From Sporosarcina sp. FSL W8-0480 (GTDB lineage Bacteria > Bacillota > Bacilli > Bacillales_A > Planococcaceae), in contig NZ_CP150166.1 in NCBI RefSeq assembly GCF_037963765.1, forward strand, positions 2,983,501-3,047,500: a stretch of 64,000 bases of DNA, given 5' to 3'. The notes beneath the pieces were generated by a model, which worked only from the letters and a program-made list of their open reading frames with translations, was not told where the DNA came from and did not search any database. The translations under genes and the position numbers were made by a program. This document shows positions 7,376-58,986 of the stretch, piece after piece; position 1 is the first letter of the stretch, and each line of letters opens with the position of its first letter.

Positions 7376-7864
7376 ATAACGACAACCTCTCTCTATCATT
7401 TATTAAGATGATTTCTATTGTTAATCGTCGTTGAAAAACTATACTAAGTAGCTTCCGTCGCCAATTTAGGGACGGTAGTGAACGGTAATAGACTTGCACG
7501 TGACAGTATGGAGATAAAATAGTGAGTGGAATTATTTCATGGATTGAGGTAAATTCTGAGGTGTCATATGGTTATGGATATAAAAACCATCTTCTTCCTC
7601 TATTGTAATGAACTGCAGAAAAACTGGCAATATAGGTTTCTAACTATTTAAAGTATTCATTCTTTATAACTGTTTTAGCCACCCCTCACTAATTCCAATT
7701 TCCCTCTCCACTAAACAGAACTACATATTTCGCCTTATCCCCCAACACCTACACATGTCACATCCATGCCACCACCCCTTGAAAACAGCCTTCCACAGCG
7801 CTCTAATTGGAACTCTAAGGAAAAAAGAAACTATAATAGGCCTTTTGACACGGAACATACTATG
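7376..7864. other. Intergenic stretch without recognisable genes
   Basis: It holds the upstream region of the response regulator and AT-rich DNA. I see no open frame with a ribosome binding site. The next dispersed element begins at its right end. Confidence 0.6.
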
Positions 7865-8021
7865 AAGGTACCTGTGCACGGCACATTTATGACAATTCAA
7901 CAGGACTAATATTCATTCAAGTTGGATCAGGTAAAACACTATAACGATTGAGTTCCATGTTTACTTTTTATGCAATTGTAGTGCATAGTCAGAATAGTTT
8001 CTTGCACAGGCACCTTTACAA
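7865..8021 (+). repeat. Dispersed ~155-bp inverted-terminal-repeat element, copy A
   Basis: The left end AAGGTACCTGTGCAC and right end TTGCACAGGCACCTTTACAA are inverted repeats. The interior has ACATTTATGACAATTCA near the left and GCAATTGTAGTGCAT near the right, which define the orientation. The left TTGT is lost. It lies between the response regulator and the PLA2-like gene. Confidence 0.9.
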
Positions 8022-33400: not shown

Positions 33401-33577
33401 TTTGTAAAGGTACGACACACTTATTGTATAGGGACCTCGTGCACGGCATATATATGACAATTCAAAGGGATGCATTATAAATTCAACTTCACTATTACGG
33501 TTAATGGTAACCATTGGTTTTACGGATTTTTATGCAATTGTAGTAAATAGTCCGAGTAGTCCGACCACAGGTACAAT
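33401..33577 (+). repeat. Dispersed element, copy B (degenerate)
   Basis: TTTGTAAAGGTAC at the left, then an inserted or duplicated stretch before CCTCGTGCACGGCATATATATGACAATTCA; at the right GCAATTGTAGTAAATAG and CCACAGGTAC. The interior matches copy A best. Older and more diverged than the other copies. Confidence 0.75.
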
Positions 33578-41982: not shown

Positions 41983-43011
41983 TTACTGAAATTTGTCTTT
42001 CCATTCGTTACGAACGCGGTCGTAGTTTTCATTCACCCAGTCAATGTCAAGGTCAACAGCGTGAGCTTTAACTTTTTCAAGTGTCAACGGAGTTTTTGAT
42101 TCTACTTCTGGATTGATCGGAATATGGTACCAGTCCGCCATGATTTGTTGCGCTTCTTTAGATAGAAGGAAGTCCATGAACTTCTTACCGCCTTCAGCAT
42201 TCGGGCCGCCTTCAATCAATGTTGCAGGGTTAACAAGTACTGGTGTTTTATCAGGAACGATAAAGTCTACAGTTTCACCTTTAGCTTTTTGCTCATACGC
42301 CATGAAGTCAAATCCGATACCGATATGAGCTTCACCCATTGCTACCGCTTTAGTTGGAGCAGAACCGGAGTCAGGAATCGAGTTCGCTTGCTTAACAAGC
42401 TTTTCGAAGAATTCCCATGCCTTTTCTTCACCTTGCTGCATCATTTGGTCCATAACCATTAGAGTCGCTGTACCAGATGCTGCAGGGTTCGGGAATTGAA
42501 TTTTCCCTTCCCATTTCGGATCAAGCAAATCAGCCCATGTTTTCGGTGCTTCTGCTTCAGTAACTAAATCCGTATTATAAGAAAAACCTAAAACGAAAAG
42601 TTCAACCCCAACATACTTTCCATCTTGGTGCTTTAACTTAATGCCGTTTTCAACAATGTCCCAATCTGCAGCGAAATCCGGAATGTAGGAAGCAAGTATC
42701 CCACGCTCAACTGCCGCTTCAAACGGAAGGATTCCTCCCCCACCATACCAAACGTCAGCTTTTGGATTGTCTTTCTCAGCCATCATCTGGTTCACTAAAA
42801 TGTTTGTCCCAGCGTAGTGAACGTCTACTTTCTGACCATGCAATTCCTCGTATTTCGCAGCCAATTCCTTCGTGAAATCAGGAGTTTCAGGTGAATAAAG
42901 CGTGATTCTCCCTTTGTCGCCACCCCCAGACGATGACCCTCCACCTGCACAACCAGCCAGAATTCCCGCTGTCAGGAATACACCAGCAGCTAATCTACCA
43001 AATCTCTTCAT
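41983..43011 (-). CDS. ABC importer substrate-binding lipoprotein (family 1/FbpA-like)
   Basis: The start at 43011 (MKRFGRLAAG) has AAGGGGG 6 nt upstream; a longer frame lacks a site. Lipobox AGILAGC, then a Gly/Ser linker and a type II periplasmic-binding fold of 342 residues (ITLYSPETPDF, ADVWYGGGGILPFEAA, WADLLDPKWEGKIQFPNP, GMGEAHIGIGFDF-like region). The conserved tyrosine pair of ferric-ion binders is not evident, and the neighbours are glycerol-phosphate genes, so an organophosphate such as a glycerophospho compound is more plausible than iron. That substrate is inferred. Confidence 0.88.
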   Translation of the reverse strand: MKRFGRLAAGVFLTAGILAGCAGGGSSSGGGDKGRITLYSPETPDFTKELAAKYEELHGQKVDVHYAGTNILVNQMMAEKDNPKADVWYGGGGILPFEAAVERGILASYIPDFAADWDIVENGIKLKHQDGKYVGVELFVLGFSYNTDLVTEAEAPKTWADLLDPKWEGKIQFPNPAASGTATLMVMDQMMQQGEEKAWEFFEKLVKQANSIPDSGSAPTKAVAMGEAHIGIGFDFMAYEQKAKGETVDFIVPDKTPVLVNPATLIEGGPNAEGGKKFMDFLLSKEAQQIMADWYHIPINPEVESKTPLTLEKVKAHAVDLDIDWVNENYDRVRNEWKDKFQ

Positions 43012-43041
43012 GAAAATCCCCCTTAATATTTTTATAGACAG

Positions 43042-43113
43042 AAAAAAAGACGAATGCAAAATGAGACCCTCCTTTAGAAAGGGCTTTCATTTTAGGCTTT
43101 CATCTCATCGTCT
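43042..43113 (-). promoter_or_regulatory. Leader terminator upstream of the ABC importer
   Basis: Outer arms AGACGA (43048-43053) and TCGTCT (43108-43113), inner arms AAAATGA (43058-43064) and TCATTTT (43087-43093) with CCCT/AGGG at the tip; seven T follow on the minus strand. No minus-strand gene lies upstream, so this is a 5'-leader attenuator or riboswitch-like element. Confidence 0.7.
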
Positions 43114-43200
43114 CTGCCTATATTGAACTAAATCTCAGTATATATCAGAATATAAAAAATGCAATAGTTTTATGACATTTTTTTCATTTATGTAAAAGTA

Positions 43201-43353
43201 TTGTTGTGGTGCCTGTGCAAGAAACATTCATGTTTATTCAGTAAATTTGTATAAATATACGTTATCTCCGCAATTTTACGCGGTTATTTATTAATAAATA
43301 TACAATTGTAGTGTATAAACTGAATAGTCTTCTGCACAGGCACCTTAACAATT
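43201..43353 (+). repeat. Dispersed element, copy C
   Basis: Left end GGTGCCTGTGCAAGAAACATTCATG, right end CTGCACAGGCACCTTAACAATT, with CAATTGTAGTGTATAAACTG near the right. It belongs to the GAAACATTCAT subfamily. Confidence 0.9.
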
Positions 43354-43559
43354 CTTCCGACAAATCCTTGAGTACCCGAAATATCCTACTTGCAATCTCC
43401 GACAAAGGAAATAGTTTCCTGTTCGAATCAAGTAGAAAAGAATCGTTTTTGGTTGTTTTAGGGTTTTTAACTTTCCAATAATTACGAATCATGTATACTA
43501 CATTCCGATAACTTGATAGGTTGCTATATTAGCGACCTAATTCCAAAGGAGGAGTTGTT

Positions 43560-45884
43560 ATGGGAATGGGTAGGAATGGATGGAGAAAGCTGTTGATCAT
43601 TTGTGCGATTGCATTGTTAGCCGGCACCGGTTATCTTTCGGCAGTTGCTGGTAAAGCAAGCGCTGCACAGACGATCCTTGTTGAAGAGAATTTTGATCAG
43701 CTTGAAGGGGAATTACCGAATGGATGGAGTGTCATACAAGGACAAGCATCCGTTGAAGACGGAAAGTTGAAGTTAATCTCACCGTCCTCTGCCTCACCGG
43801 CAAGAGTACTTGTGCCACTTTCCGACAAAAATGGGGATATCGTATTCGAAGCCGATATGACATTCGTTTCGGCAGTCGAGGATACACGCTGGGCATCCAT
43901 GATGTACAGAGTCCAATCATCGAATTATCCTTACTATCAATTCGCGATGCGTAGGGGCACAACTGCACTAAATGGTGCGGAGTTCGCGGAGCGCAATTCA
44001 AAGAACCAATGGGTCGTTCCTGAAGCAACGTTTTTCACGGAAAAGCTTGAGTACAACAAGCCATATCGCATAAAAATCATTGCAAGCGGTAATCGTGTAC
44101 AGCAGTTCATCAATAACAAGCTTGTCATCAACACGGATCAAGCTTCCAATTGGCTCAGCGGGGACATCGGTTTCCAAGCAAACGGTTCTACTGTTTTATT
44201 CGACAATGTAAAGGTCACGACTTTCGAGAATGAATTGCCACCAATTGAAAACGCTGGTGCTTTCCTTCCACAAGAGCCTATGTCGAATATTGTCAATGCA
44301 CCAACACTAATTGGACAAACCCTGCAGGCAGCGGATTCCACGAATACTGCTTCCGTTCTTCTCAAAGTAGAGAAGAATCAAAACGGCGAACTGACGACGA
44401 ATAATATGTCGCTTGAACAAGCACTTGCTATGGTCCAAAACAGACATATTCCGATCTTACAAATTGAACAAGAAGGTATTGAGGACGCAATTATCAATGC
44501 ACTGAATGCTACAACAACTACTGACGTGCATATCGTTTCGTCGAAGCCGCAAATTGTGAAAGAAATTACTGACCTGATGCCAACAGCACGCGGCGGAATC
44601 ATCTATATAAAGAACTCTTTCAATAAACATGACCTGAATGAGCTCATTCAGACTGTCCATAAAAGCAATGCGAAAGTCGCGTTGATTCCTGAAAAGGTTT
44701 TGGACACGGAAAAGGTTCATTACTTGCATACAAGAATGGTCGCGGTTTGGGGAATTGGGGCTCAAAATGAAAAAGGTGCTCATGCATTAATTCATACAGG
44801 TGTTGACGGAATCATCACCAACAACCCTGCTGCGTCGATTGAAGCACTTGGTAAATATCCTGAAAACACGATCGTTCAACGACCAATCGTCGCCGCCCAC
44901 CGAGGAGTTCCATCGCTCGCTCCTGAAAACACGATGGCAGGATATCGACTGGCGTATGACTTGGGAGCGGATCTGATTGAAACGGATGTACAATTAACGA
45001 AAGACGGTCACCTCATAATCATGCATGATTTGACAGTTAACCGCACTACCAACGGGACTGGCGCAGTAAAGGATCTTACATTGGAAGAAATCCGCCAATT
45101 GGATGCGGGCATCAAGTTCAGTGAAGAATTTGCGGGAGAAAAGGTTCCGACATTCAAAGAATTCCTTGCCGAATTCAAGAAGAAGGACATCATCCTTCTT
45201 GTCGAATTAAAGGGAGCAGGCTTCGAAGCTGAAGTGATCAAGCAAATCGAGGAATTGGGAATGGTCGACCAAGTCATCATTCAAAACTTCGACTTAGGAA
45301 GCATGGTTGATTCGTTTAAATTAAAACCTGAAATTCCTGTCGGCTACTTGTACTCGGCAGCTGTACCAGCAACGACAAGTGCCAAAATTAAAAACGCCCA
45401 AAAGATGATGGATTACGGAACATCCAACAGGGTCACTCTGAATGCAAGCTACGGAAGCACGTACGAAGAATTCATCACATACATGCGTCAACGCGGCATG
45501 CTCACAATGCACTGGACATTCCGTGCAGAAGAACCTTTCCGCGACAAACTTGCTGAAGGACTAATCGGACCAATCACCGACTACACACAGTGGCTGACCG
45601 ACGCACCAATCAAGCTTGAAACACCGATTAAGAAGATCAACCTAAAAGTCGGAAAAACATCGACTGTTAACGCAAAAGCCTTCGTCAATTTCCGTACAGC
45701 CAAAAAGGAGAATATTGCTTCTGAGTTGTTTGTTGTTGGGGATAATGGCGTGGTAAGAATTGAAGGCAACACAATCGAAGCAGTTTCCAGCGGGACTGCG
45801 CAGGTATTTGTGAAACATACATTCACGATGTTAGGTAAGGAATGGAATGTTGTTGGAGAACCGATTGAAGTGAATGTGAATTGA
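43560..45884 (+). CDS. Exported multidomain glycerophosphodiester phosphodiesterase
   Basis: 774 residues. Signal peptide or anchor (LIICAIALLAGTGYLSAVAG), then a concanavalin-like jelly-roll (about 38-225, EENFDQLEGELPNGW to VLFDNVKV). A first GDPD-like barrel (about 245-440) lacks the HRG motif and looks catalytically dead. A complete GDPD domain (about 443-690) carries VAAHRGVPSLAPENT (His447), LIETDVQL and IIMHDLTVNR. A Big-2-like Ig domain ends the protein. It would release glycerol-3-phosphate from glycerophosphodiesters or teichoic acid outside the cell. AAAGGAGGAG precedes the ATG. Its location opposite the importer, HAD and glp genes suggests one pathway. Confidence 0.92.
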   Translation: MGMGRNGWRKLLIICAIALLAGTGYLSAVAGKASAAQTILVEENFDQLEGELPNGWSVIQGQASVEDGKLKLISPSSASPARVLVPLSDKNGDIVFEADMTFVSAVEDTRWASMMYRVQSSNYPYYQFAMRRGTTALNGAEFAERNSKNQWVVPEATFFTEKLEYNKPYRIKIIASGNRVQQFINNKLVINTDQASNWLSGDIGFQANGSTVLFDNVKVTTFENELPPIENAGAFLPQEPMSNIVNAPTLIGQTLQAADSTNTASVLLKVEKNQNGELTTNNMSLEQALAMVQNRHIPILQIEQEGIEDAIINALNATTTTDVHIVSSKPQIVKEITDLMPTARGGIIYIKNSFNKHDLNELIQTVHKSNAKVALIPEKVLDTEKVHYLHTRMVAVWGIGAQNEKGAHALIHTGVDGIITNNPAASIEALGKYPENTIVQRPIVAAHRGVPSLAPENTMAGYRLAYDLGADLIETDVQLTKDGHLIIMHDLTVNRTTNGTGAVKDLTLEEIRQLDAGIKFSEEFAGEKVPTFKEFLAEFKKKDIILLVELKGAGFEAEVIKQIEELGMVDQVIIQNFDLGSMVDSFKLKPEIPVGYLYSAAVPATTSAKIKNAQKMMDYGTSNRVTLNASYGSTYEEFITYMRQRGMLTMHWTFRAEEPFRDKLAEGLIGPITDYTQWLTDAPIKLETPIKKINLKVGKTSTVNAKAFVNFRTAKKENIASELFVVGDNGVVRIEGNTIEAVSSGTAQVFVKHTFTMLGKEWNVVGEPIEVNVN

Positions 45885-45890
45885 CATGAA

Positions 45891-45924
45891 ACAGGAAGCC
45901 ATGTTGGTGGCTTCCTGTTTTTTC
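45891..45924 (+). terminator. Terminator of the GDPD gene
   Basis: ACAGGAAGCCA (45891-45901) pairs with TGGCTTCCTGT (45908-45918), then TTTTTT. Confidence 0.93.
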
Positions 45925-45966
45925 AGGTGGCATAATGCGAACGTATTGTAAAGGCAACCGAACATA

Positions 45967-46129
45967 TTGTAAAGGTACCTGTGCGCTACACATTTATGGT
46001 AATTTATCTATGTGTATAATTATACACATCTAAGAAGGATGACACTTGACTCCATTGCATTAACACACAAAATATATGTATATACAGTGAATATTCGCGA
46101 TTGTTCGCTGCACAGGCACCTTAACAATT
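45967..46129 (+). repeat. Dispersed element, copy D
   Basis: Left TTGTAAAGGTACCTGTGC, then CACATTTATGGTAATTTA; right CTGCACAGGCACCTTAACAATT. The interior differs from other copies but the left arm shows plus orientation. A second ATTGTAAAGG lies just before it at 45945-45954. Confidence 0.85.
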
Positions 46130-46311
46130 CTCAAACCCTCAAAATAAATTTTTGACCCCTTTTTCGCGTTGAAAATTCATTTTTACCCCCTTTTTCGCAA
46201 ATTTTCTTGTTTTTTGGGTGTTTTTGGTTGAATTCAGACAGTTGTCAGTCTATTAGGAATACGATAGAGTTGGGGAAAATGAAGGGGTGAAGGGAAATTA
46301 CATCGATTATT

Positions 46312-47823
46312 ATGAGTGTTGGTTTGCAAGGAATGAAAGGTCATCGGGTTGCTGTTGAGGCGAATGTTCGGATGGAAAGGGAGCAGTGTGTGATCATTGG
46401 GTTGCCGGATGCCTCTATTAAAGAGTCAAAAGAACGCCTTCTGAGTTGTTTGCATGCTCTAAACATGGACATTGATATGAAGAAAATCACAATCCATTTA
46501 TCCCCCGCGGACATTCGAAAAAGTGGGACGGGGTTTGATTGCGCAATGCTATTAGCCGTCATGCAAGAGGTTTTGAAGGAGCCGTTACCCATTGATGAAT
46601 CGACTTGCGTGATTGCGACGCTCTCCTTGAACTGTGAACTTATGCCATTCCACGGTATGATTCCAGCCATTCAGCAAGCGATTGCACTTGGTTTCAAGAG
46701 GATTTTGATTCCACCGATCGATGTCTTTTTTTTAAACCGCGTTGGTGATGTGGAAATTGTTCCGTTACGCGATATATACGAGCTTGTGTCCTATTTAAGA
46801 GGGCAGATTTCGCCTGATTTTGATACTTACCCACGTATTCCGATTGCAGACTTCAACACAACCGATATGAATCAAACGACTACAGATTTTTCATCCATTC
46901 GCGGACATAAAGTTGCGAAGCGTGCCTTAGAAATCTCTGCAGCTGGAGGACATCATGTATTGTTAACCGGCCCGCCCGGATGCGGAAAAAGTATGTTGGC
47001 TGATGCATTTCATACGATATTACCGGATTTAACCCACGAAGAGGTCGTCGAATTATATGGCATTTACCATTTAGCGCGTGAAAATCGCGGCTTATCGTTA
47101 CGCCCTCCCTATCGCCACCCCCATCACTCCGCATCCTCAGTCTCATTAATCGGCGGTGGGACATACCCGAAACCCGGCGAAATTTCCCTATCTCATCGGG
47201 GCGTCTTATTCTTGGATGAACTTGGGGAATTTTCAAGAAAGACATTGGACATGCTGCGACAGCCAATGGAAATGGGAGAAGTAACGATCAATCGGGTCAA
47301 GCAATCCGTTACCTACCCATCTAACTTCATACTGATCGCCGCAACTAACCCTTGTCCTTGCGGATATTCCGGATCAAATGAGCGCTACTGCACATGCACA
47401 CCGAGACAGGTGAATGCATATCGGCTGAAGGCTTCCGGACCGCTATTTGACCGGCTCGATTTTATTCTTTCATTACAAAACGTTGGGTTGCAAGAGCAAG
47501 GAAAAGCCGAAACCTCCGCCATTATTCGCGAACGCACAACTCGCGCCAGAGAAATGCAATGGGAAAGATACGGGAATCAATGGTTGAACGGTAATGCCCC
47601 ATTTCAACTATTAGATGAAACTTCGGGGTTAAATGATGAACAGAAAAACCTTGTCCAACGAATATGCTTTGAAAATAAATGGAGCAATCGAACGCAAATC
47701 AAGCTTATCCGAATCGCAAGGACAATCGCGGATTTGGAAGGAGAAAGATTTATTTCTGAAAATGCATTACAAGAAGCGATTAGATGGAAATCAATTGCCC
47801 CACAAGCAATGGAGGTGAATTAA
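46312..47823 (+). CDS. YifB/ComM-family Mg-chelatase-like AAA+ ATPase
   Basis: 503 residues. The N-terminal ChlI-like domain (VIIGLPDASIKESKERL, ITIHLSPADIRKSGTGFDCAMLLAV) is followed by an AAA+ core with Walker A GPPGCGKSM, Walker B VLFLDELGEF and the Cys-rich NPCPCGYSG...YCTCT insert, and a C-terminal chelatase-like helical domain. ComM promotes branch migration during transformation. Homologues usually start five or six residues earlier; the in-frame codons before the ATG read ITSII after a stop, and an ATT at 46297 follows AAGGGGTG by 7 nt, so a rare ATT start is possible. It is followed after 1 nt by the RAYT gene. Confidence 0.92.
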   Translation: MSVGLQGMKGHRVAVEANVRMEREQCVIIGLPDASIKESKERLLSCLHALNMDIDMKKITIHLSPADIRKSGTGFDCAMLLAVMQEVLKEPLPIDESTCVIATLSLNCELMPFHGMIPAIQQAIALGFKRILIPPIDVFFLNRVGDVEIVPLRDIYELVSYLRGQISPDFDTYPRIPIADFNTTDMNQTTTDFSSIRGHKVAKRALEISAAGGHHVLLTGPPGCGKSMLADAFHTILPDLTHEEVVELYGIYHLARENRGLSLRPPYRHPHHSASSVSLIGGGTYPKPGEISLSHRGVLFLDELGEFSRKTLDMLRQPMEMGEVTINRVKQSVTYPSNFILIAATNPCPCGYSGSNERYCTCTPRQVNAYRLKASGPLFDRLDFILSLQNVGLQEQGKAETSAIIRERTTRAREMQWERYGNQWLNGNAPFQLLDETSGLNDEQKNLVQRICFENKWSNRTQIKLIRIARTIADLEGERFISENALQEAIRWKSIAPQAMEVN

Positions 47824-47824
47824 A

Positions 47825-48415
47825 TTGCCAAGACGGAGACGTAACTGGCGCCCCAATGCCTATTACCATGTCGTCATGCGAGGGAATAACCGGCAAAATA
47901 TATTTGAAACCCATGAGGACCAAATGAATCTAATGCGCGCCTTCAATTACACATACTCCAAATACCCGTTCACCCTGTTGGCCTATTGCATCATGACCAA
48001 TCACTATCATTTATTAATCCGCTCCGAGGTGGATTTAAGCAAAGTCATGGCCTACATTAATCGAAGGTATAGCGACTATTACTCCAAGCGGTATCAACAC
48101 GTTGGTCGAATCTATGAAAAAAGATACTACTCCGCACTTGTCGACGGACCTAATGCGATCCTTTCCGTCAGCAACTACATCCATAGAAATCCAATTGAGA
48201 CCAAAATTCCGTTAGTGGAGAATTTGGAGGATTATCCATACAGTTCGTTTCCTTTTTATGCGGATGAAAAGAAAACCCCTCCTCGTTTTTTAGATACTGG
48301 ATTTGTAGCTGCTTATTTACCGAAGGAATACGAAAAATCGAATCAGGCGTATTGTCATTATTGTAAGGTTTATAGGCATGATATTGAGGAGGATAGAAGA
48401 ATAGTTTCGAAGTAG
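47825..48415 (+). CDS. REP-associated tyrosine transposase (RAYT, Y1_Tnp family)
   Basis: 196 residues, TTG start with GGAGGTGA about 8 nt upstream inside the ComM-like gene end. The HUH motif is His60-Tyr-His62 in MTNHYHLLIR; the catalytic tyrosine is probably Tyr118 in NYIHRNP. It begins PRRRRNWRPNAYYHVVMRGNN as single-domain RAYTs do. These enzymes nick single-stranded DNA at REP hairpins and are thought to spread REP/REPIN sequences. The co-transcription with the ComM-like ATPase and a partial dispersed element 106 nt after its stop make the nearby element family a candidate substrate, by inference. Confidence 0.92.
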   Translation: MPRRRRNWRPNAYYHVVMRGNNRQNIFETHEDQMNLMRAFNYTYSKYPFTLLAYCIMTNHYHLLIRSEVDLSKVMAYINRRYSDYYSKRYQHVGRIYEKRYYSALVDGPNAILSVSNYIHRNPIETKIPLVENLEDYPYSSFPFYADEKKTPPRFLDTGFVAAYLPKEYEKSNQAYCHYCKVYRHDIEEDRRIVSK

Positions 48416-48418
48416 GAA

Positions 48419-48462
48419 AAAAGCCAACGACTCCCCCCCAAGTCATTGGCTTACCACTTTTT
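48419..48462 (+). terminator. Terminator after the RAYT gene
   Basis: AAGCCAACGACT and AGTCATTGGCTT form the stem around a C-rich loop, followed by ACCACTTTTTA. Confidence 0.75.
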
Positions 48463-48520
48463 ATTTTTAATTCACTTCAACAAAAACTTCCCAAACCCAT
48501 CCGCTCCATCAGCGATAAAA

Positions 48521-48555
48521 TTGTAAAGGTGCCTGTGCAAGACACACTAACAATT
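48521..48555 (+). repeat. Dispersed element, copy E (left end only)
   Basis: TTGTAAAGGTGCCTGTGCAA then GACACAC, directly followed by TAACAATT as in the right flank of copies C and D. It looks like an internally deleted element, 106 nt from the RAYT stop. Confidence 0.8.
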
Positions 48556-48723
48556 ACCATCTAAAGATACTTAAACAAATTAAGTATATCTATTCACATA
48601 GTTGTGTAAAATAAAGTAAGATAGATAGATATAAAGTTCTCGTTTGAAATCTATGGCAAACAAAGGGATACTAAACTTAAGGAATTTAATAGAAATTTGC
48701 TTATGAGGGGTTTTGGGTTAAAA

Positions 48724-49752
48724 ATGGATACGATTATTCGGCTATTACAAAGAAAAGAAGTGAAACGGGTCATTATTTTTGCATTAATGATCGTTGTGTT
48801 ATTCAGCGTGAAAAGTATGATGAATTTAATCTTACTTACCTTTATATTTTCATTCTTAATGAATCGACTCGTTGAATTTACGGCAAAGCGCGTCCGTATG
48901 AATCATAAACTGATTGTTATCATGCTGTATACATTGATTGTCGGCATTTTGACGGTAGCTCTTACGAAATACTTACCGCTCATCTCCTACGAAATAACTC
49001 AGCTCGTCAGGCAAATAACAAATTTCTTCACCCACCCGCAAGAAAATCCGCTTTTAGGCGTTATTGAATCATTTATTTCCGGTGAACAGATTAAGGCCTA
49101 CATCGATAATGGCGTGTCGTTCCTACTAAAATCATTTTCAGATATTAGTAAAGTGAGTATACATGTACTGCTTGCGTTGATTTTAAGCTTATTTTTCCTT
49201 ATTGAAAAACCACGACTTGTCGAGTTTACGAATAAATTTAAAAACAGCAAGATTGCTCCCTTCTATCATGAAATTGAGTTTTTTGGAAAGAAATTTTCAC
49301 GTACATTTGGTAAAGTAATCGAAGCGCAATTTATCATTGCACTTGTTAATACGTTTTTGTCTATCATCATTTTAATGATTTTAGGATATCCTCAGATTGT
49401 CGGATTGGGCATTATGATCTTCTTCCTTGGGCTAATCCCGGTCGCAGGAGTCGTCATATCACTTATTCCACTTACGATTATCGGCTTTACAATCGGTGGA
49501 TACATGACGGTCATCTACTTGTTAATCGCTATTATGATTATCCATGCGATTGAAGCATACATTTTAAATCCGAAACTGATGTCTTCAAAAACGGATCTGC
49601 CAATCTTCTACACATTCGTCGTACTCATTTTTTCGCAAAACTTTTTCGGCGTATGGGGCCTGATCATTGGGATTCCGATTTTCATATTCCTGCTCGACAT
49701 ATTGGATGTGACCGATAAAGAGCCGGTTCCAACTACAAAAGACGACATTTAA
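48724..49752 (+). CDS. AI-2E family transporter
   Basis: 342 residues with about eight membrane helices, the normal layout of the AI-2E (YdbI/PerM/TqsA) family: three N-terminal helices, an extracellular helical domain (about 70-145), and a C-terminal bundle with GLIPVAGVVISLIPL and PIFYTFVVLIFSQNFFGVWGLIIGIPIFIFLLDI. Family members have been linked to autoinducer-2 export, sodium or lithium:proton antiport and other roles, so no substrate is given. The ATG at 48724 (MDTIIRLL) is chosen over 48697 by similarity; GAGGGG is 12 nt upstream. It is monocistronic. Confidence 0.9.
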   Translation: MDTIIRLLQRKEVKRVIIFALMIVVLFSVKSMMNLILLTFIFSFLMNRLVEFTAKRVRMNHKLIVIMLYTLIVGILTVALTKYLPLISYEITQLVRQITNFFTHPQENPLLGVIESFISGEQIKAYIDNGVSFLLKSFSDISKVSIHVLLALILSLFFLIEKPRLVEFTNKFKNSKIAPFYHEIEFFGKKFSRTFGKVIEAQFIIALVNTFLSIIILMILGYPQIVGLGIMIFFLGLIPVAGVVISLIPLTIIGFTIGGYMTVIYLLIAIMIIHAIEAYILNPKLMSSKTDLPIFYTFVVLIFSQNFFGVWGLIIGIPIFIFLLDILDVTDKEPVPTTKDDI

Positions 49753-49764
49753 CGATAATGAATA

Positions 49765-49793
49765 AACACCAGCCGCGCGTGGCTGGTGTTTTA
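49765..49793. terminator. Bidirectional terminator
   Basis: AACACCAGCC (49765-49774) and GGCTGGTGTT (49781-49790), T-rich on both sides, between convergent AI-2E and EamA genes. Confidence 0.88.
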
Positions 49794-50687
49794 TATTTGC
49801 CTTTTTATCCGAAAAAGATTTGATCCAAGTTCATTCAAAATGATTGCGAGTAGAATGATTGCAGTCCCCACCCATTGCAGCGGTGTCACCAATTCCGACA
49901 AGATGACGCTCGCTAAAAGGATAGTAATCGGCAATTCAATGGACGTTAATATATTCGCGATTCCTCCTGAAATTAAGGGTGCTCCTACTGCGTAAAACAG
50001 TGGTGGAAGGACAGCACCGAATAATGAAACCCCGATACCCACTGTTACCAAGTTTCCTTCGAGTGGAAATACAGTCGGTATATCACGCATGAACAGGATA
50101 AAAACCATTGCGGATGACCCTGTCACCATCACCGAACTCCGCGTCAACGCATCCACATTAACCGCCACTTTTCCACTAAAGAATATGAATCCTGCATATG
50201 TAAATGCGGATAGGATGCCAAATACAAACCCTTTAATCGGGAGCCCTTGAATATCCCCGTTAATGATGTTCGAAGCGAAAAAGACCCCTATGAGAATTAA
50301 AAGTATAGATAGGATCGTCATTGGTGCAGGTGTTACTTTGCTGAAGATCCATTCCAAAATGATGCCAATCCATATAAATTGAAACATTAAAATGATCGCC
50401 AACGAGGCCGGTAAGTATTGCATCGATGCGTAATAAAAAACGGTCGTCAATCCGATAAAGCAACCCGTCATCATGATTTGCAAAATATTCTTCTTCGTCA
50501 GGCCCTTGAAGCTCGACCGTCTAATTAAGGTAATAGACCATATTAATATAAAGGAAATTAACATTTGTGCAATTGTAATTTGGCCAAGTGAATACCCATA
50601 GCTAAACCCAAGCTTTGCAAATATTGGCGTAAACCCAAAACACGCTGCGCCCAATAAAACAAACACAATCCCTTTATTGAATTTCAT
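49791..50687 (-). CDS. EamA/DMT-family permease
   Basis: 298 residues with ten membrane helices in two EamA repeats (FNKGIVFVLLGAACFGFTPIFAK and GFVFGILSAFTYAGFIFFSGK). Drug/metabolite transporters export amino acids, nucleotides or drugs; the substrate is not readable. The ATG at 50687 follows AAGGAGG; an earlier start would encode the dispersed element and is rejected. It stops inside the shared terminator stem and is monocistronic. Confidence 0.9.
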   Translation of the reverse strand: MKFNKGIVFVLLGAACFGFTPIFAKLGFSYGYSLGQITIAQMLISFILIWSITLIRRSSFKGLTKKNILQIMMTGCFIGLTTVFYYASMQYLPASLAIILMFQFIWIGIILEWIFSKVTPAPMTILSILLILIGVFFASNIINGDIQGLPIKGFVFGILSAFTYAGFIFFSGKVAVNVDALTRSSVMVTGSSAMVFILFMRDIPTVFPLEGNLVTVGIGVSLFGAVLPPLFYAVGAPLISGGIANILTSIELPITILLASVILSELVTPLQWVGTAIILLAIILNELGSNLFRIKRQI

Positions 50688-50780
50688 TATGAAAATACCT
50701 CCTTGCTGCAGAAAACTAACTGTACTATTATACCATGAATGATGGAAAGCCTGAAGATAGGCTGTTTTTCGCGATTTCAT

Positions 50781-50931
50781 TTGTAAAGGTACCTGTGCAC
50801 GACACATTTATGACAATTCATATAGTTGTATATAAATACATAAAAACTCAGTATAACAGGATTTTAATAGACTTTCACTGCATAAACGGTGAATATTCTC
50901 TATTGTGTGTTACACAGGTACCTTTACAATT
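50781..50931 (+). repeat. Dispersed element, copy F
   Basis: Perfect 17-bp terminal inverted repeats: TTGTAAAGGTACCTGTG at 50781-50797 and CACAGGTACCTTTACAA at 50913-50929. The interior left ACACATTTATGACAATTCA shows plus orientation. Confidence 0.93.
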
Positions 50932-51033
50932 CCTTTACAATCATCGACACCTTCGCAATCCAATTATGATATAATAATTTAGTTGTCCGGCAGCTTAGGA
51001 AGTTGTTTCTAAATGAAGGAGGAACAACACGTC

Positions 51034-51438
51034 ATGAGGATTCTCATTATTATTTTACAGATTTGTATTCTATATATTTTTTCATATATCGGAACGGTTA
51101 TTCAGAACTTTTTCGACCTGATTATACCAGGAAGCATCATTGGGCTTCTGTTACTTTTCACTTGTCTTTGCTTTAAAATAATTCCTGTGAAATGGATTGA
51201 AAATGGCGCAGGGTTTGTACTCAGTATATTGATGCTGTTTTTCATTCCAGCATCAGTCGGTATTATGAATTATGCATCCTTACTTTCTTTACATGGTGCA
51301 TTATTCATCCTTGCCGTCATCATAAGTACAGTCATTTCCATTGCAATTACAGGGACAGCTGGACAGTTTTTCGGAAAAAAGGCTATTAAAAGAGAGGATG
51401 ATAAAGAATGCAGCAAGCAACACTCGCATTCTTCATGA
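51034..51438 (+). CDS. CidA/LrgA-family holin-like protein
   Basis: 134 residues, four membrane helices, with IGTVIQNFFDLIIPGSIIGLLLLF, the conserved LrgA/CidA core. The protein is thought to act in export of small metabolites or control of murein hydrolases with its LrgB partner. The ATG at 51034 has AAGGAGG 11 nt upstream; the ATG at 51013 lacks a site. It overlaps the LrgB-type gene by 31 nt. No LytSR is nearby, so LrgA against CidA cannot be decided. Confidence 0.9.
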   Translation: MRILIIILQICILYIFSYIGTVIQNFFDLIIPGSIIGLLLLFTCLCFKIIPVKWIENGAGFVLSILMLFFIPASVGIMNYASLLSLHGALFILAVIISTVISIAITGTAGQFFGKKAIKREDDKECSKQHSHSS

Positions 51439-52100
51439 TTTTATTAACCGTCGTTGCCTATTTAGCCGCAGTGAAACTATATAAACGGTATTCATTCTCC
51501 TTTTTAATACCTGTTCTAACTGCGACCACGATGATTATTATCGTGCTCTCTTTATTCCAAATTCCATACGACAAGTATATGGTTGGGGGACAATGGATCA
51601 GCTCCCTTTTAGGGCCTTCCGTCGTCGCACTTGCCTACCCTTTGTATAGGCAACGCCATTTTTTACGAGATCACTTACTTCCTATCTTGGGAGGGGTGTT
51701 GGTTGGCGCCAGTTCCGGAATGGTCAGCGTTGCACTCATCGCTAAACTATTCAGGCTCAATCAAAACTTAACCCTTTTCCTTATCCCAAAATCCCTTACT
51801 ACCCCCGTAGCCATTGAAGTGGCGAAAGGGCTGGACGGAAATGCATCTCTAACGGTTGTCGGTGTTATGATCGCTGGAATTTTCGGTGCAATCATCGCCC
51901 CGACTATATTTAAGCTATTGCGCATCCATAGCCCCCTTGGCAGAGGCATCGCACTTGGTGGCGCATCACATGCTATCGGGACTTCAAAAGCTGCTGAATA
52001 CGGCGAACTCGCCTTTTCGATGAGCTCTGTCACTATGGCATTATGCGCAGTCATCGGCTCAGTTTTAGGACCGATTGTTGTGTGGATATTCCATATATGA
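51408..52100 (+). CDS. CidB/LrgB-family membrane protein
   Basis: 230 residues, about seven membrane helices. The family motifs LLGPSVVALAYPLY, LIPKSLTTPVAIEV and GIALGGASHAIGTSKA are intact. It pairs with the overlapping CidA/LrgA gene. A GC-rich terminator follows directly. Confidence 0.93.
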   Translation: MQQATLAFFMILLTVVAYLAAVKLYKRYSFSFLIPVLTATTMIIIVLSLFQIPYDKYMVGGQWISSLLGPSVVALAYPLYRQRHFLRDHLLPILGGVLVGASSGMVSVALIAKLFRLNQNLTLFLIPKSLTTPVAIEVAKGLDGNASLTVVGVMIAGIFGAIIAPTIFKLLRIHSPLGRGIALGGASHAIGTSKAAEYGELAFSMSSVTMALCAVIGSVLGPIVVWIFHI

Positions 52101-52101
52101 A

Positions 52102-52129
52102 AAAGCACCGCATCTGCGGTGTTTTTTTT
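52102..52129 (+). terminator. Terminator of the lrgAB-type operon
   Basis: CACCGCA (52106-52112) pairs with TGCGGTG (52115-52121), then eight T. Confidence 0.93.
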
Positions 52130-52139
52130 CGTGGAATTG

Positions 52140-52298
52140 TTGTAAAGGTACCTGTGTAAGAAACATTCATATTTATTCAATCAATTTGTATAAATATACA
52201 TACTACAAAAACAAACAACTTATAACTAACATCACAGTTTCATATATATACAATTGTAGTGTATTAACTGAATAGTTCGCTGCACAGGTACCTTAATA
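52140..52298 (+). repeat. Dispersed element, copy G
   Basis: Left TTGTAAAGGTACCTGTGTAAG, AACATTCATATTTATTCA; right CAATTGTAGTGTATTAACTG and CTGCACAGGTACCTTAATA. It ends 5 nt before the DedA stop codon. Confidence 0.92.
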
Positions 52299-52302
52299 AT
52301 AT

Positions 52303-52962
52303 TCATTTCCCCATCCGTCCGCGTACCACACCAATAATTGCCGGCAGCACGGAAATGAAGATAATGAGTAGGAGTACGGTTGAAAAATTGTCTTTGATAA
52401 TCGGGATATTGCCGAAAAAATAGCCTAAAGTTGTACAAACCCCAACCCAAATTACGGCACCGACTACGTTATAAATCAAAAAATAACGGTAGTTCATCCG
52501 GCTCGCACCCGCGACAAAAGGGATGAACGTGCGAATGAATGGCATGAAACGAGCGATTACAATCGTTTTTCCACCATGCCTATTGAAGAAACTCTCAGCT
52601 TTAGCCATCTTTTCTTGGTTAATTAATTTCCCCATGAAACTCTTTGAAGAGATGGTAGTTCCCACTTTCTTACCGATATGATAATTCACAGTATCGCCAA
52701 GCACCGCTGCGGTAAAAAAGACGAGGACTAAGAGAACAAAGTTAAATGCCCCCCTCGTGGCTAATGCACCACTGGCAAACAATAAGGAATCTCCAGGTAA
52801 GAATGGGAAAATTACAATTCCAGTTTCAACAAATACGATTAAAAATAGGATTCCGTATGACCATCCGCCAAAGGTCTTGATGATCTCAACTAAATGGTCA
52901 TCAATATGCAGGATGAAATCAATAATAGCGTAGATTAGTGTCAAGATTGTACCTGCCTTCAT
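52303..52962 (-). CDS. DedA-family membrane protein
   Basis: 219 residues. DedA signatures: VFVETGIVIFPFLPGDSLLFASGAL, GDTVNYHIGKKVG, and HGGKTIVIARFMPFIRTFIPFVAG with the two essential arginines. Members act as lipid flippases or scramblases (undecaprenyl phosphate, phosphatidylethanolamine); which lipid applies here is open. Monocistronic. Confidence 0.92.
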   Translation of the reverse strand: MKAGTILTLIYAIIDFILHIDDHLVEIIKTFGGWSYGILFLIVFVETGIVIFPFLPGDSLLFASGALATRGAFNFVLLVLVFFTAAVLGDTVNYHIGKKVGTTISSKSFMGKLINQEKMAKAESFFNRHGGKTIVIARFMPFIRTFIPFVAGASRMNYRYFLIYNVVGAVIWVGVCTTLGYFFGNIPIIKDNFSTVLLLIIFISVLPAIIGVVRGRMGK

Positions 52963-53038
52963 AGTTTTCTCACTTCATGTTATCACAAAACTCATAGATT
53001 AGATTCAAGAATTAATTCATGAAGACCAAAAAAACCTT

Positions 53039-54319
53039 TTATATCAACGCATCCTTTTTCATGTCAACTACCACCCGTTCCTTCCCATCAGCCGTCAAGC
53101 TAACTTTCTCAGGTTTAACAAGTAGTATACTGATCAAAGTCGCAACCGCGAAGAGCCCCATGATGACATACAGCACCATGTCATAGGAATCTGTCTTGTC
53201 CAAAACAAATGCACTTAGCTGATTGCCCGTCAGTCCCGCAACCGCCCAAGCGGATAATGCCAAACCGTGCACAGTTGAAATACTGTCCAAACCGAAACGA
53301 TCCGATAACAGTGGAGGCAAAGATGAAAACCCTCCGCCGTACCCTGCATTGATGATGCAAAGCAGAGCAATAATAAGAATCGCGATTGAATTATTTAACC
53401 CATCAAACACAATCGTTAATAAAAACGCAGAAATCGATGAAATAAAAATGATCTTATAAATCGAGTTTCGATCCTTCATTCGGTCTCCCAATGAAGAGAA
53501 AAAAATCCGACCGCCCGCATTGAAAATCGCGGTTAACGAACTAACCAAACCAATTGCCCCAAATCCAATGAACGCCAAAATCCCTTTTTCCTGCGAAATC
53601 AATGCCAACCCACAAGTAATATTAATATAAAACATTAGCCAAATTCCGATGAATGTTTTATTTTTTAACGCCAATTTATAACTAAAGTTTCGTGTTTGAA
53701 CGCTTTCTTCCTCATACCCTGCCGGTTTTCTTAATAGTACATGTCCAATAACCATCATCACTAAATAGATTGCAGCTAAAATATAAAACATCGTAAAAAC
53801 ATTTGATGGATTCACCAAAATCCCTTCCACGTTTCTATCCCCCAAAAGCTTTTCCATCAATGGACTCGCAATCACCTTTGCCAATCCGAAACCAGCAACC
53901 GCAAGGCCCGTCGCCAACCCCTTTTGCTTATCAAACCAAAGCATCAACGTCTTCACCGGCGTCAAATAGCCAATTCCAAGCCCAATCCCCATGATTACTC
54001 CGTATGAAATATAAACACCGATCAATGACTTTTGGTAAATAAAGAAACCCGTTCCCGCCATCCCGGCAACAAAAAACAATGCTGAAAGCAAAGACGACTT
54101 ATGTATATCCTTCTCAACAAGCCTCCCACCAAAAGCCGCCGACATCCCAAGAACAAAAATCGCTATACTAAACGCCCACTCCACTTCCCCAACAGATCTC
54201 CCCATATAAGTGGCAATATCACCCTTAAACAGCGACCAACAGTAAACCGTACCAATACTACAATGAATTAACAAAGCCGGAAGCACAGCACGCATCCACT
54301 TATTATTAATCTTTTCCAT
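53039..54319 (-). CDS. MFS transporter, oxalate/formate antiporter (OFA) family
   Basis: 426 residues with 12 membrane helices. IGTVYCWSLFKGDIATYMG, GIGLGIGYLTPVKTLMLWFDKQKGLATGLAVAGFGLAK and RIFFSSLGDRM are family features of OxlT/YhjX-type carriers. It exchanges or imports small carboxylates; the substrate is not fixed. Monocistronic, with CCTCC-like AGGAGG before the ATG. A Lys in helix 11 typical of true OxlT was not identified. Confidence 0.88.
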   Translation of the reverse strand: MEKINNKWMRAVLPALLIHCSIGTVYCWSLFKGDIATYMGRSVGEVEWAFSIAIFVLGMSAAFGGRLVEKDIHKSSLLSALFFVAGMAGTGFFIYQKSLIGVYISYGVIMGIGLGIGYLTPVKTLMLWFDKQKGLATGLAVAGFGLAKVIASPLMEKLLGDRNVEGILVNPSNVFTMFYILAAIYLVMMVIGHVLLRKPAGYEEESVQTRNFSYKLALKNKTFIGIWLMFYINITCGLALISQEKGILAFIGFGAIGLVSSLTAIFNAGGRIFFSSLGDRMKDRNSIYKIIFISSISAFLLTIVFDGLNNSIAILIIALLCIINAGYGGGFSSLPPLLSDRFGLDSISTVHGLALSAWAVAGLTGNQLSAFVLDKTDSYDMVLYVIMGLFAVATLISILLVKPEKVSLTADGKERVVVDMKKDALI

Positions 54320-54633
54320 TTCGCCCCTCCTCCAGATCTACTGACCTTTACCTAAAACACGAACAATAATTATAAATGAATTAAATTAATTCGTCTTCGG
54401 TTCGTGATTTAATAGTTTTTGTCTTTTTTAAGAGTTATTTATAGTTAATTTACGAAAATTAATAAAGTCATTATATATCATATTAGGAAATAAGCAAATA
54501 GAAATTTGAAAAGATACTTTGTAAAGGTGCCTGTGCAGCAAACATTCTATTCCTTCTCACATGTATAGCTGCCCTTCCAAAGTTGCTGAACTTGGAATAT
54601 ACATACTTGAGAGTGCAAAAGGAGGTGATTTGA
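54320..54633. other. Intergenic region with one partial dispersed element
   Basis: AT-rich divergent spacer between the OFA transporter and the 102-residue gene. Apart from the left-end element at 54519-54547, no gene or terminator was recognised; TATA-rich sequence near 54470 may hold promoters. Confidence 0.5.
54519..54547 (+). repeat. Dispersed element, copy H (left end only)
   Basis: TTGTAAAGGTGCCTGTGCAG then CAAACATTC; no right end was found nearby. Confidence 0.75.
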
Positions 54634-54942
54634 ATGGAGGAAAAGAAAGACGCTCGACAACTAAAAGGACTGTCCGATCAGTTAATGGAAATGTATGTTG
54701 CTAACTTATTGTCCAAGCATAACGTTGATATCGAAAAAGCAAAATTGCAAATAACGAAAGAACAGCGTGCACAGTTACGGAAGACAGCAGAACAGCTAAA
54801 AGCCCAGGTAGATGAATACCTTGAGTCGAAAAAAACTCAAAAAATGCCTAAGACAGAAGAAAAAAATGCGGGACAGGTAAATCCGCTACGGGAAGCATTC
54901 ATTCAAAGAAGAATGAATAAGGAAAGAGGAAAAAATGAATAA
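54634..54942 (+). CDS. Small Lys/Gln-rich helical protein upstream of cotX
   Basis: 102 residues, almost wholly charged helix (EKAKLQITKEQRAQLRKTAEQLKAQVDEYLE), ending in a basic tail. AAAAGGAGGTGATTTGA gives a very strong site. Family not named. It precedes cotX by 75 nt on the same strand and may be co-transcribed late in sporulation; a coat or spore-maturation role is plausible but inferred. Confidence 0.72.
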   Translation: MEEKKDARQLKGLSDQLMEMYVANLLSKHNVDIEKAKLQITKEQRAQLRKTAEQLKAQVDEYLESKKTQKMPKTEEKNAGQVNPLREAFIQRRMNKERGKNE

Positions 54943-55017
54943 AACCAGATGATTGTCCAACTCAACAAAAGTTTTGAACATCTAATAAGAAGAGATAAAG
55001 AAAGGAGGGGAAAATAA

Positions 55018-55503
55018 ATGTCCTATTACGATGACGATGAATATGAATATTGTCGTTCACGTTCTCAAGGTAGGTGGTCTGCCTTGGACCCTGATGCCGA
55101 GCATCCGATCTTCTCATCCAGAAACAGAAATTCTAACACTGGGGCTGAAGCGGGTCTTTTCTCGGATATCGACCAAATTTCCAATGAATTAATTTTAATT
55201 CGCGACTCCAGCAACGTTTCCGTCCACACGACGGACACACAAGTTGCAGCATCCCTGCAAGCAGCTTTGCAGGTTGCAATCGCCATTGTTGTCAACATCT
55301 CGATTGCCGACGCCTCAAGAGCGGAGCGCGTAACAGCAGAATTATTGGAAAGAGCGACTATCCGACAGTCCAACCGCCAAAGAATGTACATCGTTAACTC
55401 CCGTGATATTGAAGTTATTACGGAAGATATCGATGTGGCAATATCCTTGCAACTTTTACTACAGGTCTTATTGGCATTAATTGTCCAATTAGACATACTG
55501 TAA
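55018..55503 (+). CDS. cotX: Spore coat protein CotX-like (insoluble fraction)
   Basis: 161 residues with two CotX/CotV-type repeats. The first (about 50-105) reads DQISNELILIRDSSNVSVHTT, then ASLQAALQVAIAIVVNISIADA; the second (about 118-161) has QRMYIVNSRDIEVITEDIDVAISLQLLLQVLLALIVQLDIL-like sequence. An acidic Tyr-rich N-terminus (SYYDDDEYEYCRSRS) is typical. CotX is cross-linked in the outer coat or crust. AAAGGAGGGG precedes the ATG. Its presence is the main evidence for endospore formation. Confidence 0.92.
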   Translation: MSYYDDDEYEYCRSRSQGRWSALDPDAEHPIFSSRNRNSNTGAEAGLFSDIDQISNELILIRDSSNVSVHTTDTQVAASLQAALQVAIAIVVNISIADASRAERVTAELLERATIRQSNRQRMYIVNSRDIEVITEDIDVAISLQLLLQVLLALIVQLDIL

Positions 55504-55643: not shown

Positions 55644-55801
55644 TTGTAAAGGTGCCTGTGCAAGAAACATTCATGATAATTCAACCAATTTGAATAAATA
55701 TACATAAATAAAGAGTGAATATTGTAGGTGCAGCCTCACATATTTATATTTATGCAATTGTAGTGTATTAACTGAATTCAACCTTGCACAGGCACCTTAA
55801 A
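55644..55801 (+). repeat. Dispersed element, copy I
   Basis: Left TTGTAAAGGTGCCTGTGCAA, GAAACATTCATGATAATTCA; right GCAATTGTAGTGTATTAACTG, then CTTGCACAGGCACCTTA. Nearly identical to copy K over most of its length. Confidence 0.95.
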
Positions 55802-55865
55802 AATATTGCCCACCCCTTCCCAATAAGAGATAATAAAAGGATTACACAACAAGAGAGGTTTTCAG

Positions 55866-56507
55866 ATGAAAGGAAGTTCACACGCAGCTATCGGCGCCGC
55901 AGCCGGAGCAATAGCAGGATATCAGATGCAGCCTGATTTATATACAATAGTGGTCTCTTCGCTTATCGGAGGCGTATCAGCGTTAGTCCCCGACCTGGAT
56001 ACAAATGGGTTGGCAAGCAATCGGATCACTCTCTCAAAGAAATTTGCTCAATGGCTCATGCAGTCCGTTGGGATCGGCACTTTAGTCGCGATTGCATATC
56101 AGTTTTTCACTACAGGCTTCTCTCCTTCTATTATTCTTTACGCGGGGATCGGTTTGCTATTTTTCATCATCTCGCATTTCATTACACAACGAAGAATGTT
56201 AACACTAACCGGAGTCATGGTGATGTGGCTCGGCATTGTGATGCATCAGTCCATCGGCATCCTGTTGGCCGGAAGTTATATCGTCATCGCGTCATTCCTG
56301 CCACACCGGTCCTACACTCATTCACTTTTAGGACTCGCGTTTTATGCATTCATCTTGCATCATTTACAACAGGAGTGGGCATTCGAAGGTCTACTTGTTG
56401 CAGGAATAGCCGGGTACACCAGTCACCTCATTGCGGACATGAAGCTATTGCCAATAAACCGCCGAGGCGTGAAGTTACTCGCTCCGCTTTGGAATAAAGA
56501 ATTGTAA
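55866..56507 (+). CDS. YdjM/DUF457-family membrane-bound metal-dependent hydrolase
   Basis: 213 residues. The family pattern is present: initial SSHAAIGAAAG, then LVPDLDTNGLASNRI, LPHRSYTHSLLGLAFYAF and GYTSHLIADML-like HLIADMKLLP, giving His/Asp metal ligands among about five membrane helices. E. coli YdjM is SOS-induced; function is unknown. The last Leu codon and stop (TTGTAA) are the first bases of dispersed element J, so the element forms the end of the gene. Confidence 0.88.
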   Translation: MKGSSHAAIGAAAGAIAGYQMQPDLYTIVVSSLIGGVSALVPDLDTNGLASNRITLSKKFAQWLMQSVGIGTLVAIAYQFFTTGFSPSIILYAGIGLLFFIISHFITQRRMLTLTGVMVMWLGIVMHQSIGILLAGSYIVIASFLPHRSYTHSLLGLAFYAFILHHLQQEWAFEGLLVAGIAGYTSHLIADMKLLPINRRGVKLLAPLWNKEL

Positions 56508-56655
56508 AGGTGCCTGTGCAAGAAACATTCATGATAATTCACACAATTTGAATAAAAATACATAGATTCCAAATAAGAATCGTACCTACAACCCTAACAA
56601 TTTATATTTATACAATTGTAGTGTATTTACTGAATAGTTCCATGCACAGGTACCT
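56502..56655 (+). repeat. Dispersed element, copy J
   Basis: Left TTGTAAAGGTGCCTGTGCAA, GAAACATTCATGATAATTCA; right CAATTGTAGTGTATTTACTG and ATGCACAGGTACCTCAA. It overlaps the YdjM-like stop codon. Confidence 0.95.
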
Positions 56656-56706
56656 CAAAATTGGCACCTCAAAATTAGATTAACATTAAAAAATGGGGTG
56701 GAATTT

Positions 56707-57976: not shown

Positions 57977-57980
57977 GTAA

Positions 57981-58809: not shown

Positions 58810-58965
58810 TTGTAAAGGTACCTGTGCAAGAAACATTCATGATAATTCAACCAATTTGCATGAATATACATAAATACAAAGTAGATATTGTAGGTATCAC
58901 CTTACATATTTATATTTATGCAATTGTAGTGTATTAACTGAATTCAACCTTGCACAGGCACCTAA
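58810..58965 (+). repeat. Dispersed element, copy K
   Basis: Left TTGTAAAGGTACCTGTGCAA, GAAACATTCATGATAATTCA; right GCAATTGTAGTGTATTAACTG and CTTGCACAGGCACCTA. Nearly identical to copy I. Confidence 0.95.
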
Positions 58966-58986
58966 ATAATTCATAATTCCAAATGA

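Follow-up and report, generated by a model that had tools for sequence, protein, structure and literature searches.

REP-associated tyrosine transposases (RAYTs, or TnpAREP) are known from E. coli, Pseudomonas, and Stenotrophomonas, where they accompany repetitive extragenic palindromic (REP) sequences, REP doublets forming hairpins (REPINs), or bacterial interspersed mosaic elements (BIMEs). In the sections of PMC6006769 drawn on here, a REP family of its own for each tnpAREP is described as the rule, and a Y---NP signature marks the TnpAREP class, versus Y---Q in IS200. RAYT-like genes with terminal inverted repeats have been named TIRYTs (Di Nocera et al. 2013, PMC3733652, in part), and the consulted part of PMC8266576 describes the spread of REP sequences as poorly understood. 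The stretch of DNA analysed here (the window) comprises 64,000 nucleotides of Sporosarcina sp. FSL W8-0480 (contig NZ_CP150166.1, positions 2,983,501 to 3,047,500) and carries a RAYT-like gene behind a ComM-like gene, among copies of a dispersed inverted-repeat sequence (the element). On sequence comparison, it appears likely that gene and element form a REP/RAYT-type system of Gram-positive bacteria, in which the RAYT would cut, rejoin, and spread the element, which is probably its substrate. The pairing is supported by clade-specific co-occurrence, by the position of the element behind RAYT genes in other genera, and by a strand locked to replication. Since a RAYT behind a ComM-like gene is found together with matching, replication-oriented hairpin repeats, a Gram-positive form of the repeat-spreading system seems to exist. 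No REP/RAYT system of Bacillales surfaced in titles or abstract openings of the open-access literature, and the system is therefore taken as a newly described form of REP/RAYT.

The open reading frame (ORF) at 47825..48415 (+ strand; 196 aa, TTG start) encodes a Y1 (HUH) transposase that belongs with the TnpAREP (RAYT) proteins. Its sole Pfam domain is Y1_Tnp (E 3.6e-17), with no C-terminal helix-turn-helix (HTH) domain at E≤0.001, and it scores slightly below the cut-off of NCBIfam REP_Tyr_transpos (75.6 bits versus 80). The top fold match in the PDB to its AlphaFold2 model (pLDDT 90.3) is TnpAREP 4er8 (Foldseek E 2.2e-8, TM 0.65/0.77), which is also the top PDB profile match of the sequence (E 2.7e-5). 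An earlier note on this DNA had read an HUH motif, His60-Tyr-His62, and had placed the RAYT start 1 nt past the ComM-like stop; both readings are borne out. H60 and H62, together with Y118, are invariant in two alignments of 19 and 31 sequences, and Y118, the first residue of the Y---NP signature YIHRNP (residues 118-123), is by motif position the candidate catalytic tyrosine. The ComM/YifB-like Mg-chelatase AAA+ ATPase ORF (46312..47823, +, 503 aa) ends one base before the RAYT begins, and a GGAGG at 47811..47815 (+), inside its end, is the likely ribosome-binding site of the RAYT. The assignment of the ATPase ORF rests on matches to Pfam Mg_chelatase (E 1.2e-81), ChlI, and Mg_chelatase_C and on a score above the cut-off of NCBIfam TIGR00368 (405.1 bits versus 362.4); it falls below that of PRK09862 (281.4 bits versus 530).

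The element is about 145-160 nt long, with ends GGTRCC...GGYACC. At its termini stand TTGTAAAGGTRCCTGTGCA and the inverse of that sequence, with conserved tracts next to them; the centre varies, and the 3' part contains a GTAG. The foot reads GGTRCC-TGTGCA / TGCACA-GGYACC. Across the 3.25-Mb genome there are 35 occurrences of the core AAGGTNCCTGTGCA and 0 of its reversed control. An nhmmer search of the same genome (G000), seeded with seven window copies and covering 464 kb from two zones together with two separate 3-kb loci, gave 34 element places, 24 of them near full length. The eleven places listed for the window are all on the + strand, as the earlier note had claimed in describing a strict orientation. 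A complete copy absent from that note precedes the gene pair (45967..46127), and the truncated copy that it had placed 106 nt behind the RAYT is present, at a distance of 105 nt from the stop, as a 5' end only (element E, 48521..48550, model positions 1-30, nhmmer E 5.5e-5). Further copies were found at 7863..8021 (by nhmmer), 43201..43351, 52140..52299, 56502..56660, and 58810..58969, with a degenerate copy at 33424..33574 (nhmmer, 45 bits), a variant without GTAG at 50781..50929, a 5'-end stub at 54519..54547 (nhmmer E 7.4e-4), and, at 55644..55803, the top-scoring match to model R1, which was built from that copy and 21 others. An Rfam scan of window positions 43000-59200 gave no match.

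The earlier note had likened the GTAG to the tetranucleotide recognised by RAYTs beside REPs. This hint gained strength in that 129 of 137 copies have a GTAG within their final 60 nt (58/58 in G005, 55/57 in G013, and 16/22 in G000), against 8/137 with a GTAG in the remainder of the element. The motif sits inside the element and not at a hairpin foot. At most a weak 5-bp hairpin (helix 3) surrounds it; a helix by column pair 105/117, which flanks GTAG, was rejected as unconvincing (paired in 21/42). The two inverted ends and the variable linker are present, the 12-bp end helix being paired in 98.0% of cells, and this outer arm is almost without informative variation for a covariation analysis.

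The check proposed in the earlier note, whether the element goes with this RAYT clade, was made across the genus. A RAYT match was found in 44 of 68 Sporosarcina genomes, and in 13, that of the window included, the RAYT is at least 65% identical. At least 25 element matches were counted in 12 of these 13 genomes, versus 3 of the 55 others (Fisher p 7.7e-10, a value that ignores kinship and uses thresholds set after the tables were viewed). In these first counts at most 43 candidates were scored per genome, and both strands of one copy can count. The exceptions are G021 within the clade, with 16 matches, and G053, G023, and G003 outside it. A recount with more candidates scored, retaining rows at E≤1e-5, gave 12 rows in G021, 25 in G009, and 53-142 in the others among ten clade genomes plus G000. 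RAYT remnants only were found in G031 and G004. Outside the genus the element was matched in 2 of 53 genomes, G068 (21 rows) and G070 (one), both with a RAYT; no match was found in 4 further RAYT-bearing genomes or in 47 without a RAYT match.

Among 80 named RAYT loci, 20 have a match to the window-type element, several of them weak or partial, and these include loci of Planococcus, Indiicoccus, Jeotgalibacillus, Chryseomicrobium, Tetzosporium, and Paenisporosarcina. The element starts at most 400 nt behind the RAYT in 12 of the 20 (1.68 expected), and 66 of the 76 matches at named loci share the strand of the RAYT. At many other Bacillales RAYT loci different short repeats adjoin the gene. 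The earlier note had counted such a different family beside a RAYT against its proposal; for other RAYT clades this is literally the case, but we do not consider it fatal, since by the rule cited above (PMC6006769) every tnpAREP has a REP family to itself. A repeat with a further copy occurs in 38 of 59 RAYT 3' flanks (300 nt) versus 126 of 449 flanks of other ORFs at the same loci. With the clade of the window excluded, TGAATTGT is present in 20/58 RAYT 3' flanks versus 24/605 control flanks (p 5.7e-14), and GTCAGAAT, GCACAGGC, and others are likewise enriched; these p-values are optimistic because the loci are related. We read the repeats flanking Bacillales RAYT genes as one superfamily with clade-specific members. 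The pattern GAATTGTGTGNNNCACAGG was tried as a marker of other RAYT clades and, with 31 occurrences in G022, 13 in G052, and ≤7 elsewhere, is no clean one. The genome of the window has a second RAYT (RAYT-2; G000:C1:3111075-3111650, locus L002), 49-51% identical, which follows a remnant of the ComM N-terminus and is surrounded by a 45-nt repeat family of its own; that family was found by fuzzy matching with up to 12 substitutions and without E-values. Both repeat families share two zones on opposite chromosome arms (G000 1.34-1.49 Mb and 2.99-3.14 Mb).

The strand of the element follows replication. With dnaA at 445.5 kb in G000, 2.373 Mb in G005, and 488 kb in G023, and replichores taken as half the genome on each side of it (the length of G023 being rounded), the rule that copies lie on + in the left replichore and on - in the right fits 33 of 34 places in G000 and, among the matches listed, 71/73 in G005 and 24/24 in G023, where two second-strand rows were dropped from the count. 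GC skew in G000 is negative in 13 of 15 left-zone bins and positive in 8 of 9 right-zone bins. Within each of four zones of G005 and G013 one strand is shared by all copies (27/27, 39/39, 26/26, and 36/36); for the G013 zones this refers to strand sharing and not to placement relative to dnaA. Among 155 copies, neighbouring ORFs stand in each of the four possible arrangements around elements of one and the same strand, which means that the strand is not dictated by transcription. Copies are crowded in two zones: among the matches listed for G005, 43/73 lie at 0.38-0.53 of the right arm, with the RAYT inside, and 24/73 at 0.65-0.70 of the left arm. The zones of G000 and those of G005/G013 differ in the genes that they contain, 9 of 319 G000-zone ORFs finding a match (≥55% identity, E≤1e-20). 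Inside or near the element zones of G000 there are also three DnaA-domain matches with identical scores (C1:1378310, 3118959, and 3148913), which are perhaps, as a guess, IS21-type helper genes.

Several observations weigh against the pairing of RAYT and element. The earlier note had named a high-copy element in a relative lacking any RAYT as evidence to the contrary, and G053 is literally such a relative, with ≥43 matches in the first count, 138 rows in the recount, and no RAYT at E≤10; this real exception could be explained if the RAYT had been lost. G003, G041, G002, and G059, with 21, 15, 14, and 11 rows, likewise have no RAYT at E≤10. As a group these four are no poorer in rows than the RAYT-bearing G021 (12), and G003 comes near G009 (25). 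In two clade genomes, G021 and G029, the RAYT match is interrupted by an in-frame stop, yet 103 rows were counted in G029, and G023 is rich in copies with a RAYT match that is just 51% identical and contains a stop. The co-occurrence figures ignore shared ancestry, and the match in G070 is a single borderline row (E 7.2e-4). Between a third and half of the copies lie in a second zone (24 of the 73 listed in G005, 15 of 34 in G000). A search of this zone for RAYT remnants, covering G005A, G013A, G000 C1, and part of G040 C24, found none at E≤1, and a ComM-like match in G005A was discounted (25% identity, E 0.14). When read by its GAATTGT sense, the second repeat family (that of RAYT-2) runs in the opposite direction, which leaves one common active strand in doubt. 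No clean empty site emerged from three G005/G013 candidates inspected, two of which were not cleanly alignable while the third was occupied in both genomes, with end duplications in G013 only. The GTAG, finally, is not at a hairpin foot, and the element ends need not be classical REP hairpins. The suggestion in the earlier note that the dispersed family is the RAYT's substrate draws support from co-occurrence, position, and strand and is set back by G053.

If the element is the substrate, the RAYT would be read from the comM-like operon and would recognise the element as single-stranded DNA by its foot and its internal 3' GTAG. Cutting and rejoining, for which the RAYT is the presumed agent, would then spread non-autonomous copies. 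The single strands may be those exposed at the replication fork, which would account for the strand bias. Duplications at the element ends would be traces of a RAYT cut at the foot, rejoined to a strand cut 13-14 nt outside.

Such tandem duplications of flank plus GGTACC were found at 35/137 left and 30/137 right ends in G005, G013, and G000, with periods mostly of 13-14 nt, compared with 0 to 0.05 for shuffled flanks. Most of them belong to two sister genomes, G005 and G013 (32 left and 28 right of 115), and the 22 copies of G000 have 3 left and 2 right, four with periods 17-21. One, a 14-nt duplication of an element right end (GGTACCTCAAAATT / GGCACCTCAAAATT), lies in the window at 56649..56676 (+). 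In other genomes the rate is lower (9/148 ends). An orthologous element pair has end duplications in G013 and none in G005, and duplications must therefore arise, or be lost, in place. In the two first scans the end of GGTACC served as the anchor; a scan of 422 ends without an anchor gave 45 exact duplications. The inner edge falls at C|T in 16 of these and one base further in 12, whereas 6 have it at -4 and 11 elsewhere. By our reading, 26 of the 45 would agree with a break precisely at C|T; according to the consulted part of PMC8266576, the TnpAREP enzymes that have been studied cleave next to the REP at C|T, and one of them also at CA. The inner edge at -4 corresponds to an 11-nt unit, mainly in G040, and ends in G040:C24 and L086 bear 11-nt tandem units (GAATTGTGTGG/GAATTGTTTGG), a second class of end duplication.

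The same duplications could instead be products of replication slippage at the hairpin foot, uninformative on RAYT chemistry, and this explanation has a substantial chance of being right, although we lean slightly against it. A long hairpin may stall the polymerase; the outer break has, by our reading, no fixed sequence; the 11-nt units have another edge; and the RAYT-free G053 has duplications at 2/12 ends. Slippage usually uses some microhomology, however, and 43 of 57 duplications of period 12-15 have none at the outer edge, the 14 that extend by ≥1 base being at about the chance level. Slippage also sits poorly with the narrow unit length and with an inner edge that agrees with C|T in 26 of the 45 exact duplications. 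The wider synthesis, that a widespread Bacillales RAYT lineage, often comM-linked, serves clade-specific families of one superfamily (marked by GAATTGT arms, GTAG, and a GGTRCC/CAGGCACC foot), with strand-specific insertion at the fork and 13-14-nt duplications as RAYT footprints, is offered tentatively, with somewhat less than an even chance of holding as a whole.

The earlier note had also suggested that the linkage of ComM and RAYT has a functional basis. The gene order does recur across Bacillales. Of 31 RAYT loci (30 of the genus, including both of G000, and one of a sister genus), 14 have a near-complete ComM immediately upstream and 5 have fragments of it. Among the 80 named loci the corresponding numbers are 16 (twice in two pieces) and 4, spread over Sporosarcina, Indiicoccus, Planococcus, Paenisporosarcina, Bacillus, Alkalihalobacterium, and Mesobacillus, and in 4 further named loci ComM is divergent or downstream. 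The two sets overlap. A shared function is unsupported. In other bacteria ComM acts in branch migration during natural transformation, and a role here in branch migration or hairpin unwinding would be a guess. At the RAYT loci of the element-rich G005, G013, G036, and G040, ComM is absent or decayed: in G036 residues 1-21 and 468-498 only precede the RAYT, and RAYT-2 of G000 retains residues 1-24 only, as if a leader driving the RAYT had been kept while ComM was lost. A search of the open-access literature surfaced no ComM-RAYT link. We regard a partnership of the two proteins in single-strand DNA processing, which the recurrent gene order would favour, as doubtful.

The terminal inverted repeats and the high copy number in the RAYT-free G053 would suit an ordinary miniature inverted-repeat transposable element (MITE), moved by an unlinked DDE transposase, with the RAYT a bystander among the copies. 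We consider this improbable. Offset matching on 135 copies revealed no fixed-length target-site duplication standing out beside the ends, the exact ends being uncertain; a strand fixed by replichore is not predicted by double-strand transposition; and the place and number of elements track the RAYT clade.

The centre of the element is base-paired in one subgroup. In an alignment of 42 copies from G036, G040, G053, and L086 (the same genome as G040), from which copies with unclear ends or cut by the border of a stretch had been removed, followed by 7/49 of odd length, a 15-bp central helix has both-side changes at 11 pairs, and 67.5% of its cells pair. Over the whole named structure, 66 cells changed on both sides versus 37.7 ± 5.0 in shuffles (0/500), and the covariation score was 0.147 versus 0.105; the number of pairs with both-side change (12) and the pair types were not above shuffles, and RNAalifold on this alignment did not pick the central helix. 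Single strands of three chosen copies, both strands of each, fold much more favourably than shuffled sequences (z -5.3 to -11.9). In L226-L233, L234-L238, L086, and L242 the centre is often a terminator-like hairpin (e.g., GAAGCCGATCAAA...TTTGATCGGCTTC plus a T-run), and similar hairpins stand beside repeats in Planococcus L094 and L100. That the copies are now immobile and selected as regulatory or terminator elements, their orientation kept by function, is very improbable: this would fit their mostly intergenic position (the middle lies inside an ORF in 3/155 copies) and the terminator-like paired centre with compensatory changes in the one subgroup, but not the same element strand with all four neighbouring-ORF arrangements, the differing gene content of the zones (9/319 ORFs matching), or the orthologous pair that differs by end duplications.

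If the RAYT does spread the element, the end duplications could reveal, without more than sequence data, how it cuts and rejoins DNA in living chromosomes. Asymmetric repeats give a strand, the strand follows replication, and ends are rearranged in place, so that the single-strand model would become testable in Gram-positive soil bacteria. Elsewhere in the window, at 25178-26131, there is a tandem array with 82-nt spacing.

The locus shares features with three described groups. As in the TIRYT/TIRtron arrangement (PMC3733652, in part), a RAYT-like gene is flanked by elements with terminal inverted repeats, the downstream copy here being a stub. The NH[YF]H and Y-IH-NP motifs are close to those tabulated for TnpAY1 subclass 2.1, or Bertels group 1 (PMC6006769). 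Unlike TIRYTs and subclass 2.1, the RAYT described here has no C-terminal HTH by Pfam and is 196 aa long, against a tabulated median of 238 in the consulted sections, and the element consensus contains no GGGG and thus no GGGGWSAS motif. According to those sections (Quentin et al. 2018, PMC6006769), genes of subclass 2.1, the closest class by motif, have no REP-like sequences reported nearby. With IS200/IS605 members (IS608 and ISDra2) the locus shares the HUH fold and a strand choice tied to replication (PMC6006769, same sections); unlike them, its repeat is non-autonomous and the transposase gene lies outside the repeat. From the TnpAREP/REP systems it differs in its Bacillales host, in repeats of about 145-160 nt with a GGTRCC foot, in a GTAG inside the 3' part, in the crowding of copies in two zones, and in the ComM-like gene of the operon. 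Like those systems, it combines a Y1 HUH transposase bearing the Y---NP signature with a non-autonomous, intergenic repeat family of its own, whose members have two inverted ends, a variable middle, and a conserved GTAG, and stand beside the gene. The genome has two RAYTs, each with copies of a separate dispersed repeat family on its flanks, for RAYT-2 as judged by fuzzy matching.

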